A stretch of DNA of 64,000 nucleotides from Methanoregula sp. GTDB taxonomy: Archaea > Halobacteriota > Methanomicrobia > Methanomicrobiales > Methanospirillaceae. The position numbers were made by a program, and so were the translations under genes. Below, piece after piece: positions 44,836-50,344 of this stretch; position 1 is the stretch's first letter; each line of letters opens with the position of its first letter. The notes under the pieces are model-generated. The model searched no databases and had not been told where the DNA came from. It saw only the letters and a program-made list of their open reading frames with translations. The stretch is from the NCBI GenBank assembly GCA_026625165.1, contig CP112999.1, positions 1,988,741 to 2,052,740 on the forward strand. The letters are read 5' to 3'.

Positions 44836-45714
44836 ATGTTTTTTAATCAAAACAATTCTATCAATTATAATATGTCCCGCACCTCCGAATTCCTTCGGAC
44901 TCTATGTTATATCGATGGCGGAATTCTCCTGTTCACAACAGTATTACGATTAAACCAAGGGGACATTAACGCGTTATTTATTCTTATCCCCGCGCTTCTC
45001 TCATTCGCTGCAGGCAGATATTATACTACACATAAGGATTATGTTTCATTCTGGTCCCTCCTCATATCGGGAGGCTTGGGTTATGTAATGCTCATTAATC
45101 AGAATCCTTACTATCCTGACCCAGTCGGGACAGTATTAATGAAATTCCTCCTGCTCGCGTTCCCGCAAACAGTGATCCTGATCCTTACAATAAAAATCAA
45201 GGGTTTTGTCCTGTATCCAAAGGATGAGCCTGCTATACAAAACAAAGCTACCTTTTCCCCAGATAAAGGTGTAAAACCGTTATCCTCAACCGGCCATCAC
45301 GACGTCTTCATCAGCCATGCACAGGCAGACAAACCTGTAGCAGATGCCGTATGTGCCCGGCTTGAAGCTGCCAACATCCGCTGCTGGATTGCACCCCGTG
45401 ACGTTCCACCCGGCAAGGATTTCCCGGAAGCCATCATTGAGGGCATAGAAGGGAGCCGGGTGATGGTTCTCATCTTCTCGTCCCATTCCAATAACTCAAA
45501 ACATGTCATCCGCGAACTTACGAGTGCAGTCAACAAGGGGCTCGTCATCGTCCCGTTCCGGATTGAGGATATCATTCCTTCAAAGTCCATGGAGTACCTC
45601 ATCAACATTCCTCACTGGCTTGACGCACTGACTCCCCCGCTGGAACAACATCTCGAAACTCTTACGGATCGGATTGTACACATTTTACAGGATATTCCAT
45701 TGCCTGAGAAATAG
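44836..45714 (+). CDS. Membrane TIR-domain protein
   Basis: 292 residues. Four predicted membrane helices (about 22-122) precede a cytoplasmic TIR domain (155-290). The TIR shows HHDVFISHAQADKPVADAV, CWIAPRDVPPGKDFPEAI and NNSKHVIREL, where Glu227 is at the position of the catalytic glutamate of NAD-cleaving TIRs, and ends IPHWLDALTPPLEQH. The TIR half is closely similar to the one encoded at 49166. A TATA-like AAATATTTAAAG lies just before the ATG, so the mRNA may be leaderless or start at ATG 44872. Role inferred: NAD-consuming effector or signalling enzyme. Confidence 0.85.
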   Translation: MFFNQNNSINYNMSRTSEFLRTLCYIDGGILLFTTVLRLNQGDINALFILIPALLSFAAGRYYTTHKDYVSFWSLLISGGLGYVMLINQNPYYPDPVGTVLMKFLLLAFPQTVILILTIKIKGFVLYPKDEPAIQNKATFSPDKGVKPLSSTGHHDVFISHAQADKPVADAVCARLEAANIRCWIAPRDVPPGKDFPEAIIEGIEGSRVMVLIFSSHSNNSKHVIRELTSAVNKGLVIVPFRIEDIIPSKSMEYLINIPHWLDALTPPLEQHLETLTDRIVHILQDIPLPEK

Positions 45715-45895: not shown

Positions 45896-46904
45896 GGCTC
45901 TGTAGAAAACCTGATCTAAAACAGAGTTGTACCGACGACCGAAAGAGCTAAGGTACGGTGTCTCCTTACCTTGTTATGCAATCAACCTGTAAGGAGACGA
46001 TATAGTGTCAGCAAACCGGTATATCAGGTTTGTTGAAATATCATCCGGATTGATCAAAGATTCAAGAATTCCTCTTTTCTCTTCCAAGTTCTCAAGAAAA
46101 ACCTATACCCAACACCAGTTACTCATTCTCCTTCTCCTGAAAGAATATCTGTCTGAAGATTACCGGGACACGATCGAACTAACTGAGATCATGGATTCTC
46201 TCAGAGAGAAGATTCACCTCGATGAAGTACCTCATTTCACGACTATCCAGAAGTTCTGTCAACGGATCCGATCATTCACTTTCACCCGGTTACTTAACCG
46301 GCTCATGAAAATGTTCTACGACTGGGGCGAGAGGATCCCTTGTACTGCTATCGATTCATCCGGGTTCACCAGCTCCTATGCCAGCCATTATTATTCGTGG
46401 AGAACCGGTAAGACCAGAAAACGGTTCCTGAAAACCTCGATCTCCGTTGATACTGATCGTCAGATTATCACCGGTCTGAAGATCTCCCAGCACCCGGTCC
46501 ATGATATCCCTCACGCTGAAAAACTCCTGAAACAAACTCACAGAACCAGACAATCCGACCTCTATGTCATGGACAAAGGATACGACTCTGAAGAGATCCA
46601 TGAATTGATCCGGGACTCCCTCAACTCCTGTTCCCTTATCCCGGTCAGAAACAGAAAACGGAAACGAATCTCCGGGTATTACCGAAGACGAATCGCTCAG
46701 TCATTCGATGAAGATAAGTATCATCAGAGAAATAAGGTCGAAACGGTATTCTCCGTCCTGAAAAGAAAGTTCGGAGAAGCCCTCAAGGCTCGAAAATACA
46801 GACTCCAGATCAAGGAGATCAAAATTAAAGTGATCCTCTATAACCTCTCAAGAATGATGTTAACAATTTCAGTTCTTATTCGTATTGAGGAATTCTACAG
46901 AGCC
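45896..46904 (+). mobile_element. Complete insertion sequence, IS5-like with 8-bp target duplication
   Basis: 1009 bases. Terminal inverted repeats start GGCTCTGTAGAA on both ends (14 of the first 16 bases match: left GGCTCTGTAGAAAACC, right reversed GGCTCTGTAGAATTCC). One transposase gene fills it. The 8-base target duplication and size suggest the ISH1-like subgroup of IS5, which is a guess from general features. The inside has no stop for the transposase before the right end. Confidence 0.9.
46005..46904 (+). CDS. IS5-like DDE transposase, read through into host gene
   Basis: 300 codons from a GTG with AAGGAG before it to the exact right end of the element. DDE residues appear in [26 protein letters not shown] and [20 protein letters not shown] (Y..R..E..F..K pattern). 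The frame has no stop of its own: it crosses the terminal repeat and continues 228 codons into the interrupted lipoprotein, stopping at 47588, so the present product would be a 527-residue chimera. The catalytic part looks intact. Confidence 0.9.
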
Positions 46905-46912
46905 ACAATTAC
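46905..46912 (+). repeat. Target-site duplication, right copy
   Basis: ACAATTAC directly after the right terminal repeat, matching 45888-45895. Confidence 0.92.
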
Positions 46913-47610
46913 AACAATCGGTTGCGTGCAGAACACTTCAAATCCTGCCAAGGTAACAACCGGTATTCAGGCATCCCCGACAGCAGTTTCTTCTGCCGGC
47001 ACCCCGGAAATATCGCCCGCTCCCGGAACGACCGCCGCTGGTACAAAAACCAGTATTGTCACACCTCCCGTACTCACCAAGGTCATTAAAGACAGTGACC
47101 TGCTATTCTCATTAAAAGTACCTGAAAATTATTATGGGGCGACGAGAAGGTTATCGAACAGGGAGGGTTACTCGGGAATGATCTTTGCATCCGATATCGT
47201 AGATAAGAGTAACAGGAATCCGCAGTCAATTGAGAACTCTACCGACGATGGGTTGTATATACTAACCTATGGTATCGCGAGGAACCAGGACCAGGATCTA
47301 CGCAACTGGATCCGCGAACACTGGGTAAAGCCTGTCGAAACATCAGTTGTGATAAACGGGATCAAGTACACCAGGTTTGAGACAGGTTCGGGCATTAAGA
47401 GCGTTGCATACATTGGTTCAAAAACCAGTGCCAATGAAAAAGCATACGCGGTTGCCATTATCTATAATGTTGATCCGTCAGCAACCAAGCTCGGGATCGA
47501 AGGTCATGACGCAATGGTGAATTCGTTCCGATGGCTCACGATTAAAGAGGCCGGAACCACAACAGGTGAAGAGACGCAAAAAATATAAGCGCGGTTTAGC
47601 CCTTTCATCC

Positions 47611-47706
47611 TCGCTCGACGCCCTCACTCCCCCGCTGGAGCAGCACCTGGACAGCCTTACGGTCCGGATCACCCACATCCTCTCGGGTACCCCAGTGATG
47701 AAGTGA
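47611..47706 (+). pseudogene. C-terminal fragment of a third TIR-domain gene
   Basis: Encodes SLDALTPPLEQHLDSLTVR and a stop shortly after, matching the ends of both intact TIR proteins (LDALTPPLEQHLETLTDR; LDAITPPLEKHIDELAGN). No start and no upstream TIR sequence remain. It lies between the disrupted lipoprotein and the RyR gene, so a TIR gene once stood directly before the RyR gene. Confidence 0.8.
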
Positions 47707-47802: not shown

Positions 47803-47923
47803 CTTGTTTTTATCATAATTCCTGAGAACGAGCCTCCATGCAGTTGATCCCTGCATACGGTATTTAATGAAAAACGTGAATATTATCGTTTAACAGAAAC
47901 CAGATTGGACAGAAGGTGTGGAG

Positions 47924-49036
47924 ATGCTTTTACAGAACGATGACAAACTGGCACAGGTCCTGAACTCGCTGCCGGTACTGATATTTTTTACAGATCCTGA
48001 CGGTGTATTTCTCTGGAAAAATAAGATATTTTATAAATTTTTCACGGGCTTGAAAATATCCGGAGGAGTAAATTCCATTGGTGATCTTTTTCCGGAAGAT
48101 AAAGAGGAGTTCTCCCGCGATATTCACAAAGTCGCCTCAACCGGTGAGCCGAAGTACGGGATCATCCGCCGGATCGACACCGCAAAAGCCGGTGCAAAAA
48201 CCCTGAAGTTCAGTATCCTCCCCTTCAATGGCAGCGGAAAGAGAAAATTTGAAATCCTTGTATTTGGGACAGACATCACCGAACAGGCCGAGATGGAACA
48301 ATTGAAAAAGGATGCTTATGACCAGATCGAGAGAAATATCGAACAGTTCGCAATATTGGGAGACCACCTTCGCAACCCTGTCACTGGAATTGTCGGGTTC
48401 TGCGATCTGCTTGACGACAAAACCATCGCCCAGAAGATCATTGGACAGGCTAAAGAGATCGACCGCATCATCACGCAGATAGATCAGGGCTGGATCGAAT
48501 CGGAAAAAGTCAGGACTGTTATTAAAAAATACTATGATGTCGGCGTAAGCGGGACGCATGAACTCGTTGCCCGTGCGATTCATGAAGAATATATCTCTCA
48601 GCAGAAGAAGTTGGGGATGACCCCGGAAACAAACCCCTCGATGCGCCCCTGGAACGAGCTGTCCCGCCACCTGCAGGATGCAAACCTCAAGCAGGCTGAC
48701 GATGCGTGGAAGAAGCTGCAGATGATCCAATGTGCTATCGGTTTTGCCATAAAACCGGACGAGCCGTTGTTCAGGTTCCTCCCCCAGGAGATCGAGATGC
48801 TGGCTGAACATGAACACCAGCGCTGGATGGATGAAAAGGTAAAAATGGGGTGGAAATACGGGCCCGAGACCAATGATAAGGCAAGAATTCATAATTGTAT
48901 AGTGCCGTGGGAGGTTCTGCCGGACCATGAGAGGGAAAAAGACCGGGATGCGGTCCAGGCCCTGCCGCAAATCCTTGCGAAGGTACGGTTGAAAATTATC
49001 CGGTTCGAAGAAAAAGAACCGCAAGACTATATGTGA
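47924..49036 (+). CDS. PAS / histidine-kinase-like dimerisation / RyR-domain sensor protein
   Basis: 370 residues in three parts. A PAS domain (about 8-125; LNSLPVLIFFTDPDGVFLWKN ending FGTDITEQ, split here as the typical PAS edges). A helical part with a histidine-kinase H-box, GDHLRNPVTGIVGFCDLL (His148). Then, where the ATPase should be, a RyR (ryanodine-receptor) domain: HELVARAIHEEYI, SMRPWNELSRHLQDAN, and HEHQRWMDEKVKMGWKYGPE. No HATPase motifs (N, G1, G2 boxes) exist. RyR domains in prokaryotes have been proposed to bind nucleotide-type ligands in conflict systems. ATG 47924 has gaaggtg before it. Confidence 0.82.
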   Translation: MLLQNDDKLAQVLNSLPVLIFFTDPDGVFLWKNKIFYKFFTGLKISGGVNSIGDLFPEDKEEFSRDIHKVASTGEPKYGIIRRIDTAKAGAKTLKFSILPFNGSGKRKFEILVFGTDITEQAEMEQLKKDAYDQIERNIEQFAILGDHLRNPVTGIVGFCDLLDDKTIAQKIIGQAKEIDRIITQIDQGWIESEKVRTVIKKYYDVGVSGTHELVARAIHEEYISQQKKLGMTPETNPSMRPWNELSRHLQDANLKQADDAWKKLQMIQCAIGFAIKPDEPLFRFLPQEIEMLAEHEHQRWMDEKVKMGWKYGPETNDKARIHNCIVPWEVLPDHEREKDRDAVQALPQILAKVRLKIIRFEEKEPQDYM

Positions 49037-49165: not shown

Positions 49166-50344
49166 ATGCCACCTCCAGATGAATTTTCCCGGCCCAATGT
49201 AAACCATCACGATGTCTTCATCAGCTATGCCCAGCTTGATAAACCGATCGCCGATGCCGTATGTGCAAAACTGGAATCCCGCCATATCCGGTGCTGGATT
49301 GCACCACGGGATGTGCCTCCGGGGAAAAATTTCCCGGAAGCAATCATCGATGCGATTGAAGAGAGTAAAGTTGTCACGCTGATCTTTTCATCGCACGCCA
49401 ACAATTCTCCTCATGTACTCAGGGAAGTCACCAAAGCCGTGAACAAAGGCTGCATCATCGTCCCGTTCCGGGTTGAAGATGTCGTGCCGTCCAAATCGAT
49501 GGAATACCTGATCAGTGTCCCGCACTGGCTGGATGCAATTACACCTCCACTCGAGAAGCATATTGATGAACTGGCTGGTAACGTTGAACGAATTCTTTTG
49601 TCGTCAAAGGAACCTGCAGTCTGCGCGTCCTGTAAAACACCCCTCTCGTCCAATGCCCTTTTCTGCGAGAACTGCGGGAAACCTGTAACTGCAATTGTGC
49701 CCCAGGCTGCAACGCCGCCACCGCCACCAGTTGCAGAGCCATTGCCTGAAAAACCCGTGGATAAGCCGGCCAAGGTAGCGGAGGGGGAGGCACCCCCATT
49801 ACCGGTTTCACCTAAGGCACATCCGGGGCGCAACCGGAAGCTGCTCATCGGTGCCGGCATCATTGTTGCCGTGCTTGTTGCCCTGGTCTTTGCGTTTATC
49901 ATAAATCCTGCTACACTGCTCCAACCTATCGGAATTTCGATCAACGGGGGTGCAGCTTCACCCGTTACTGCAACGCCGACTCCCGTGAACTACCGGAGCG
50001 GGAACGCACCGATCAATACCGTGATTCTGACAACGGTACCGACACAGGTGCTTCCCGAAGGAAACTCGCTGACCATTGTCGCAGAAAAAAACCCCGTTGA
50101 TGCAGAAGTGGTTGTCAAGTTCGAAGGGGGTCGCGGGCAGGGGCTTGTGCTGGACAACCAGGTGATCCTGACGAGATCCGATGGGACCGTCACACAAGGG
50201 AAACTGGACTTTAGCCGGAAACCGTCAGAAGTCACCCTGCAGGGAACCCGCGGGACGGACCGCTTGCAGGTGATCGTGACCATGCGTTCCGGTGCAACCT
50301 ATGCAATCGTAGACCAGTTGCTGCCATACCGGGTAAGGGGATAA
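49166..50344 (+). CDS. TIR protein with zinc ribbon, membrane helix and external domain
   Basis: 392 residues. N-terminal TIR (14-145; HHDVFISYAQLDKPIADAV, CWIAPRDVPPGKNFPEAI, HVLREVTK with Glu87 at the catalytic position), a zinc ribbon (CASCKTP ... CENCGKP, about 151-173), a Pro-rich linker, one membrane helix (about 228-252) and a C-terminal domain of about 85 residues like that of the lipoprotein at 18264. Topology: TIR inside, shared domain outside. So an outer signal could control an inner NAD-cleaving domain. The TIR is a close paralogue of that at 44836. Confidence 0.87.
   Translation: MPPPDEFSRPNVNHHDVFISYAQLDKPIADAVCAKLESRHIRCWIAPRDVPPGKNFPEAIIDAIEESKVVTLIFSSHANNSPHVLREVTKAVNKGCIIVPFRVEDVVPSKSMEYLISVPHWLDAITPPLEKHIDELAGNVERILLSSKEPAVCASCKTPLSSNALFCENCGKPVTAIVPQAATPPPPPVAEPLPEKPVDKPAKVAEGEAPPLPVSPKAHPGRNRKLLIGAGIIVAVLVALVFAFIINPATLLQPIGISINGGAASPVTATPTPVNYRSGNAPINTVILTTVPTQVLPEGNSLTIVAEKNPVDAEVVVKFEGGRGQGLVLDNQVILTRSDGTVTQGKLDFSRKPSEVTLQGTRGTDRLQVIVTMRSGATYAIVDQLLPYRVRG

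Follow-up and report, generated by a model that had tools for sequence, protein, structure and literature searches.

The gene at 47924..49036 (+ strand, as are all features given below) of the window, which is the whole analysed stretch of 64,000 nucleotides, encodes a PAS-HisKA(DHp)-RyR protein that, with a probability of roughly 0.52, acts as the receptor in a two-gene unit for TIR-RyR nucleotide signalling. The RyR domain would receive the product of the TIR protein encoded next door, and the PAS-DHp dimer would relay it. Of this reading, the domain architecture, the folds, the conserved residues and the pairing of the two genes are shown. The initial annotation included neither the invariant TIR partner gene nor the correspondence with the residues by which the phage protein RyDEP binds cADPR; both point towards a nucleotide receptor.

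Domain architecture

The open reading frame encodes 370 aa from the ATG at 47924, or 372 aa from an alternative GTG at 47918; the ATG is the better start because of an AAGGTG five bases upstream. Residue numbers here count from the GTG, two codons before the ATG, and the His148 of the initial annotation corresponds to H150. The PAS domain (47960..48289, residues 15-124) scores 27.6 bits against the Pfam PAS_4 cut-off of 23.1, and residues 6-121 of an AlphaFold2 model match solved PAS domains with Z of about 12-13. It leads into a HisKA/DHp-like helical hairpin with an exit helix (48278..48535, residues 121-206), delineated by Pfam, the model and a family survey; in particular, the Pfam HisKA match (residues 142-195) reaches 30.5 bits with a cut-off of 26.9, and the model places helices at residues 121-164, 168-193 (the return helix) and 196-206. 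Beyond a low-confidence hinge near residues 204-210 lies a confident, mostly helical domain (210-362), where residues 291-356 score 66.6 bits against the RyR cut-off of 27.4, making the protein a member of PF02026. The model was built from a 33-row alignment and has a mean pLDDT of 83 and a pTM of 0.52, a low value that leaves the relative placement of the domains uninterpretable. By structure comparison, its residues 6-200 match the sensor and DHp parts of a LOV-histidine kinase.

Pfam and AlphaFold2 thus bore out the order of PAS, HisKA-like and RyR regions proposed in the initial annotation, which had left the nature of the helical region and of the C-terminus to structure prediction: the former forms a hairpin in the model and exceeds the HisKA cut-off, and the latter matches the Repeat12 fold (Z 13.9). 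Its claim that the protein lacks an ATPase also holds, as there is no Pfam match to HATPase_c and the RyR fold comes after HisKA instead; because the ATPase is absent, the protein cannot phosphorylate itself in cis. The suggested search for other PAS-HisKA-RyR proteins returned seven further full-length orthologs and one cut short where its contig stops. The architecture is kept in all eight full-length orthologs (window protein included) and in the truncated one, which rules out chance or a sequencing artefact as its source. Among the sampled genomes, these orthologs occur solely in Methanoregulaceae, the family to which kinship also assigns the host archaeon; the contig scan relied on two peptide patterns taken from HisKA and is biased to that module, and the sampling of RyR domains came from family searches.

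A family of PAS-HisKA proteins that end without an ATPase

The same genome encodes three more PAS-HisKA proteins (333, 612 and 579 aa), all of which stop directly after the helix pair. Across the order, the query was matched in 151 of 199 sampled genomes, mostly through its PAS-HisKA module, and Pfam recognises HisKA in 32 of 33 family members that were sampled. When 92 such modules were examined, 86 ended 0-25 residues past HisKA and the other 6 were RyR fusions; none of the 92 had room for an ATPase domain after HisKA. Galperin et al. 2018 (PMC5847659) described nonenzymatic histidine kinase-like proteins of the type 'HisKA, no HATPase', mainly from Archaeoglobi and Methanomicrobia, and proposed phospho-acceptor or phosphatase roles for them. 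The window protein resembles these in having a PAS sensor and a HisKA-like dimer domain, mostly with its His, without HATPase and in the same archaeal order; it differs in that they end at HisKA, whereas it continues into RyR and has Gln in place of the His in 2 of 8 orthologs. It is therefore a fusion variant of them, since RyR comes after HisKA.

This history makes the phrase 'ATPase replaced by RyR' in the initial annotation misleading, and the scenario in which an ATPase was lost and RyR took its place was rejected: the relatives stop at HisKA, and RyR is an addition because the recipient family has no ATPase. In a tree, the eight fusion proteins have RyR domains that fall into a single clade (support 100/100), which fits a single event joining RyR to the end of a PAS-HisKA protein. 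This clade groups with TrkA_N-RyR proteins, not with AAA-RyR proteins (86/97).

In the ortholog alignment, the H-box His150 (48365..48367) is Gln in two of the eight proteins, namely the closest relative (L088, 64% identical) and L089. Judged as a histidine kinase, the window protein itself has HisKA above the cut-off together with its His, and Gln stands there in these two orthologs. Throughout the family, the His is kept in 82 of 92 modules; Gln occurs in one of the 86 that end at the C-terminus, and Glu, Asn, Tyr, Leu and Lys are also found, while the remainder of the motif (D..RNP) is mostly kept. A dimer role is likely for the PAS-DHp part, with phospho-acceptance optional.

The genome contains 32 HATPase_c matches (not all necessarily kinases) and 22 receiver-domain matches, so that partners for a DHp dimer exist. 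These numbers, the His retained in most of the ATPase-less family and the roles put forward by Galperin et al. would suit a PAS-gated phospho-acceptor or scaffold in two-component networks, to which the RyR domain is accessory and the TIR neighbour incidental. This reading is quite improbable, since His150 is lost even in the closest relative, the RyR ligand residues never vary, and the TIR pairing lies far above chance. The initial annotation had offered a phospho-acceptor role for the protein; as a requirement, it is unlikely, given that H150 is replaced in 2 of 8 orthologs and, across the family, in 10 of 92 modules, and that the RyR ligand residues are invariant.

The RyR domain and its ligand residues

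The RyR domain is a complete two-repeat Repeat12 fold (48539..49009, residues 208-364), recognised by VIA-align to human RyR3 and by phmmer to RyR2. Residues 208-364 of the model superpose on the whole of human RyR3 Repeat12 (848-1055, also given as 863-1055; 6uhb) with Z 13.9 and an rmsd of 3.2 over 157 aligned residues. The human receptor shares this fold at about 20% identity, but its Repeat12 belongs to a calcium channel that is about 5000 residues long. Repeat A (48554..48739, residues about 213-274) is degenerate: it was found in a whole-genome profile search at 15.3 bits, below the PF02026 cut-off of 27.4, and lies inside the structural match to Repeat12. Repeat B (48788..48985, residues 291-356) accounts for the 66.6-bit PF02026 match and carries the RyDEP-type ligand residues.

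Whether ryanodine-receptor domains bind cADPR has been debated for decades. Lopez Rivera et al. 2026 (preprint, PMC13232231) now report that a phage RyR domain does: DyoEdafos gp78 (RyDEP), a PF02026 protein, binds and cleaves 2'cADPR and 3'cADPR through H75, W78, H100 and D117. Among eight tested phage homologs in that study, six bind, two bind neither signal and none cleaves. In a direct alignment to gp78, H300, W303, H325 and D342 of the window protein (48815..48943) fall gap-free on these four residues, and all four are invariant in 8 of 8 orthologs; hhalign of repeat B to RyDEP gives the same register (probability 97, E 1.2e-10). The alignment shows that the RyDEP-type site is kept in the window RyR domain. 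That the ligand is cADPR does not follow from these residues, because neither signal was bound by two of the eight phage homologs, and because ATP and ADP are ligands of human Repeat12. RyDEP and the phage sponges (PF02026; PMC13232231) thus share with the window protein the RyR fold and the aligned, invariant residues, whereas RyDEP is a phage enzyme of 138 aa that stands alone and overcomes Thoeris, and the window protein is cellular and multidomain, is encoded beside a TIR gene and has a putative function. For cellular prokaryotic RyR proteins, no wet data were found beyond the Bacteroides thetaiotaomicron RyR-like structures (3nrt and others).

The best structural matches to the RyR model include RyR3 Repeat12 solved with ATP, ADP and AMP-PCP, as would be expected if the domain senses a general adenine nucleotide (ATP, ADP or NAD) and the protein reports energy or NAD status, e.g. 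the loss of NAD caused by the TIR protein. PAS domains, too, often sense redox or energy state. Even so, the strict TIR pairing and the RyDEP match suggest a TIR-specific signal, and a general nucleotide sensor is quite improbable.

The TIR partner protein

The neighbouring gene (49166..50344) encodes a 392-aa protein that, by Pfam and modelling, comprises a TIR domain, a zinc ribbon, a Pro-rich linker, a TM helix and an exported beta domain. The full model is poor (pLDDT 59, from seven sequences). The TIR_2 domain (49214..49537, residues 17-124; Pfam 6e-21) has a fold that matches the solved TIR domains of RRS1/RPS4 (Z 16.7), SARM1 (13.8) and AbTir (12.2). Glu87 (49424-49426) occupies the catalytic-Glu position; it is invariant in 8 of 8 orthologs and lines up with the Glu that TIR-STING and TLR6 conserve. 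On the strength of this fold and residue, NADase activity is assumed for the partner.

The zinc ribbon is absent from some orthologs. Beyond the TM helix, the C-terminal beta domain (50063..50329) is modelled with a pLDDT of about 80-89. Stand-alone homologs of this domain occur in 60 of 61 family genomes, and one is a small lipoprotein with a lipobox, which supports its location outside the cell. The domain appears to define an unnamed family of small secreted proteins or lipoproteins found in nearly every Methanoregulaceae genome (e.g. L218:1498-1938).

PADLOC and NCBIfam models match the TIR protein weakly (ThsB, E 4e-5, 20.9 bits; ThcB4, 19.5 bits against a cut-off of 220), none of the PADLOC models matches the PAS-HisKA-RyR protein, and no ThsA-type effector was recognised at the window locus. 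Matches as weak as these do not support an assignment of the unit to Thoeris. The likeness to Thoeris (TIR ThsB plus an effector) is that a TIR gene accompanies the gene of a protein that is a candidate to receive an ADP-ribose-type signal; the locus differs in its missing ThsA-type effector and weak ThsB matches, and a defence role cannot be read from its genes.

Pairing of RyR and TIR genes

The TIR gene is the next gene downstream, on the same strand, at 9 of 9 loci with the RyR gene (the eight full-length genes, window included, and the one cut by a contig end). The gaps between the two genes span 32-223 bp, with a 14 bp overlap in one genome. Most loci share common surroundings, with thiL and a DUF2281-like gene; in G184 the surroundings are different and the RyR-TIR pair is still intact. 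Further, the pairwise distances of the RyR and TIR proteins correlate with r = 0.93.

Beyond these orthologs, 22 of 32 TIR_2 genes in the 24 RyR-bearing Methanomicrobiales genomes lie within 10 kb of a RyR gene, where 0.34 would be expected; when a single genome represents each genus, 6-7 of 14 genera show such proximity, against 0.17 expected (P about 1e-9 or less). These expectations assume uniform gene placement, and defence-type genes tend to cluster anyway; general clustering could explain part of the excess, but hardly the direct, one-direction adjacency. Moreover, the TIR proteins encoded beside RyR genes vary in architecture (short TIR, TPR-TIR and TIR-ZnR-TM), which argues that the pairing arose repeatedly. 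In particular, TIR genes often directly adjoin TrkA_N-RyR genes, again with differing TIR architectures. A plasmid survey returned four RyR matches, one with a TIR gene nearby, and with so few matches neither backs nor refutes a bacterial RyR-TIR link. No report of cellular RyR-TIR pairs was found in the literature searched; outside that literature, the 2015 survey of nucleotide-centred conflict systems by Burroughs et al. may bear on prokaryotic RyR domains and may have noted RyR-TIR links.

There is an exception to the link: one genome (G515; locus L221, G515:C18, upstream of 6429) has an intact TIR gene at the usual site and only a decayed 39-residue RyR match (E 4e-4). This locus bears on the main rival to the receptor reading, namely an off-switch in which the RyR protein degrades the TIR product, as RyDEP does, or sequesters it, as the sponge homologs do, limiting or ending the signal, while the PAS-DHp part serves solely for dimerisation and regulation. 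The catalytic dyad H75/D117 is retained as H300/D342 in all eight orthologs, the RyR gene lies ahead of the TIR gene in a common direction of transcription, and those prokaryote-associated RyR domains for which biochemical tests were found all act as degraders or sponges (PMC13232231). Retained residues, however, do not imply cleavage, as the non-cleaving phage homologs (six of which bind) demonstrate; the TIR gene persists in G515 after its RyR gene decayed, and an antidote is therefore not needed for survival; and elsewhere RyR is fused to TrkA-type transport and AAA+ modules, which are receptor-type architectures. The G515 locus and these fusions weigh against a degrader or sponge, which is unlikely overall. 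As a special case, the idea of the RyR protein as an obligate antitoxin of the TIR protein is weakened by the same locus.

Proposed mechanism

Under the receptor reading, the TIR protein, anchored in the membrane and perhaps triggered by way of its exported beta domain, would turn NAD into an ADP-ribose-type signal, e.g. 2'cADPR or 3'cADPR. The signal would bind the pocket of RyR repeat B through the conserved H300, W303, H325 and D342, and the PAS-DHp dimer module, having no ATPase, would pass the bound state to an output. This output may consist of docking to, or tuning, response regulators or kinases of the two-component network, or of gating another partner, and the PAS domain may contribute a second input. 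In the TrkA-type RyR proteins of the same order, whose genes likewise neighbour TIR genes, ion transport would be gated by the same receptor. The cleavage of NAD, the identity of the ligand, the relay, the output and any antiviral role are what we infer from the genes and their folds.

The PAS-HisKA module has been known since 2018, and the RyR fusion and invariant TIR partner extend it. In the window locus, a candidate cADPR receptor that is cellular, small and apparently soluble has its presumed signal maker as a neighbour, so that receptor and signal can be tested together. For the many HisKA proteins of methanogens that have no kinase domains, the locus further suggests an output, through coupling to second-messenger sensing and not through kinase activity of their own. 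A broader, tentative extension is that cellular archaeal RyR domains might be receptors for TIR-made cyclic ADP-ribose isomers; in that case, signalling from TIR through cADPR to RyR could be old in prokaryotes, older than the debated link between cADPR and the animal ryanodine receptor, and its outputs could be exchanged for one another: transport of the TrkA type, AAA+ machines or, in the window protein, a PAS-DHp dimer coupled to two-component signalling.

Other RyR loci and the window neighbourhood

The TrkA_N-RyR proteins of Methanomicrobiales are the closest RyR relatives outside the fusion clade, have the same two-repeat RyR domain and in several cases are encoded directly beside TIR genes; they differ in carrying N-terminal membrane and TrkA_N domains where the window protein has PAS-DHp, and in TIR partners of other architecture. 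TIR or TPR-TIR genes precede TrkA_N-RyR genes in L083, L201 and L200 (directly in all three) and in L203 and L204, and such loci are candidate TIR-gated ion-transport systems in methanogens. One locus (L079, G033:C1:198940-216265) packs five TIR_2 and two RyR genes into about 17 kb, one RyR gene encoding a TrkA_N-RyR protein and the other a stand-alone 102-aa RyR protein (115 bits). A second archaeal RyR class, of about 850-1070 aa, combines a kinase-like N-terminus, an AAA+ module and a C-terminal RyR domain (L080:3083-5629, L077:2204-4801, L206, L208 and L209); in L206, its gene adjoins one for a very large WD40-repeat protein. On a Priestia aryabhattai plasmid (L197, NZ_CP128553.1), a small RyR gene directly follows an adenylate/guanylate cyclase gene; a Pycsar-effector gene is close by, and about 1.3 kb separate it from a TIR gene. 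This hints at a role of RyR proteins in other nucleotide-signalling defence loci as well.

The window's genome has three TIR_2 genes, and two of them are found no more than 3.2 kb from the only RyR gene above the Pfam cut-off. Besides the partner gene, the other of these two, identified by Pfam, encodes a 292-aa TM-TIR protein (44836..45714), 2.2 kb upstream of the RyR gene; it is probably a relative, and no membership in the unit is claimed for it. Between the two TIR genes, a 527-aa open reading frame (46005-47588) has a DDE transposase as its N-terminal half and runs in frame into an unrelated, secreted-protein-like tail; a relationship of this tail to a PsbP-like neighbour was rejected, as the two show no similarity. 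Adjoining it on the 3' side is a remnant of a TIR C-terminus (47617..47706, DALTPPLEQHLDSLTVRITHIL...), recognised by comparison with the TIR at 44836-45714. The transposase frame and this remnant indicate that a mobile element disturbed the spot between the TIR genes.
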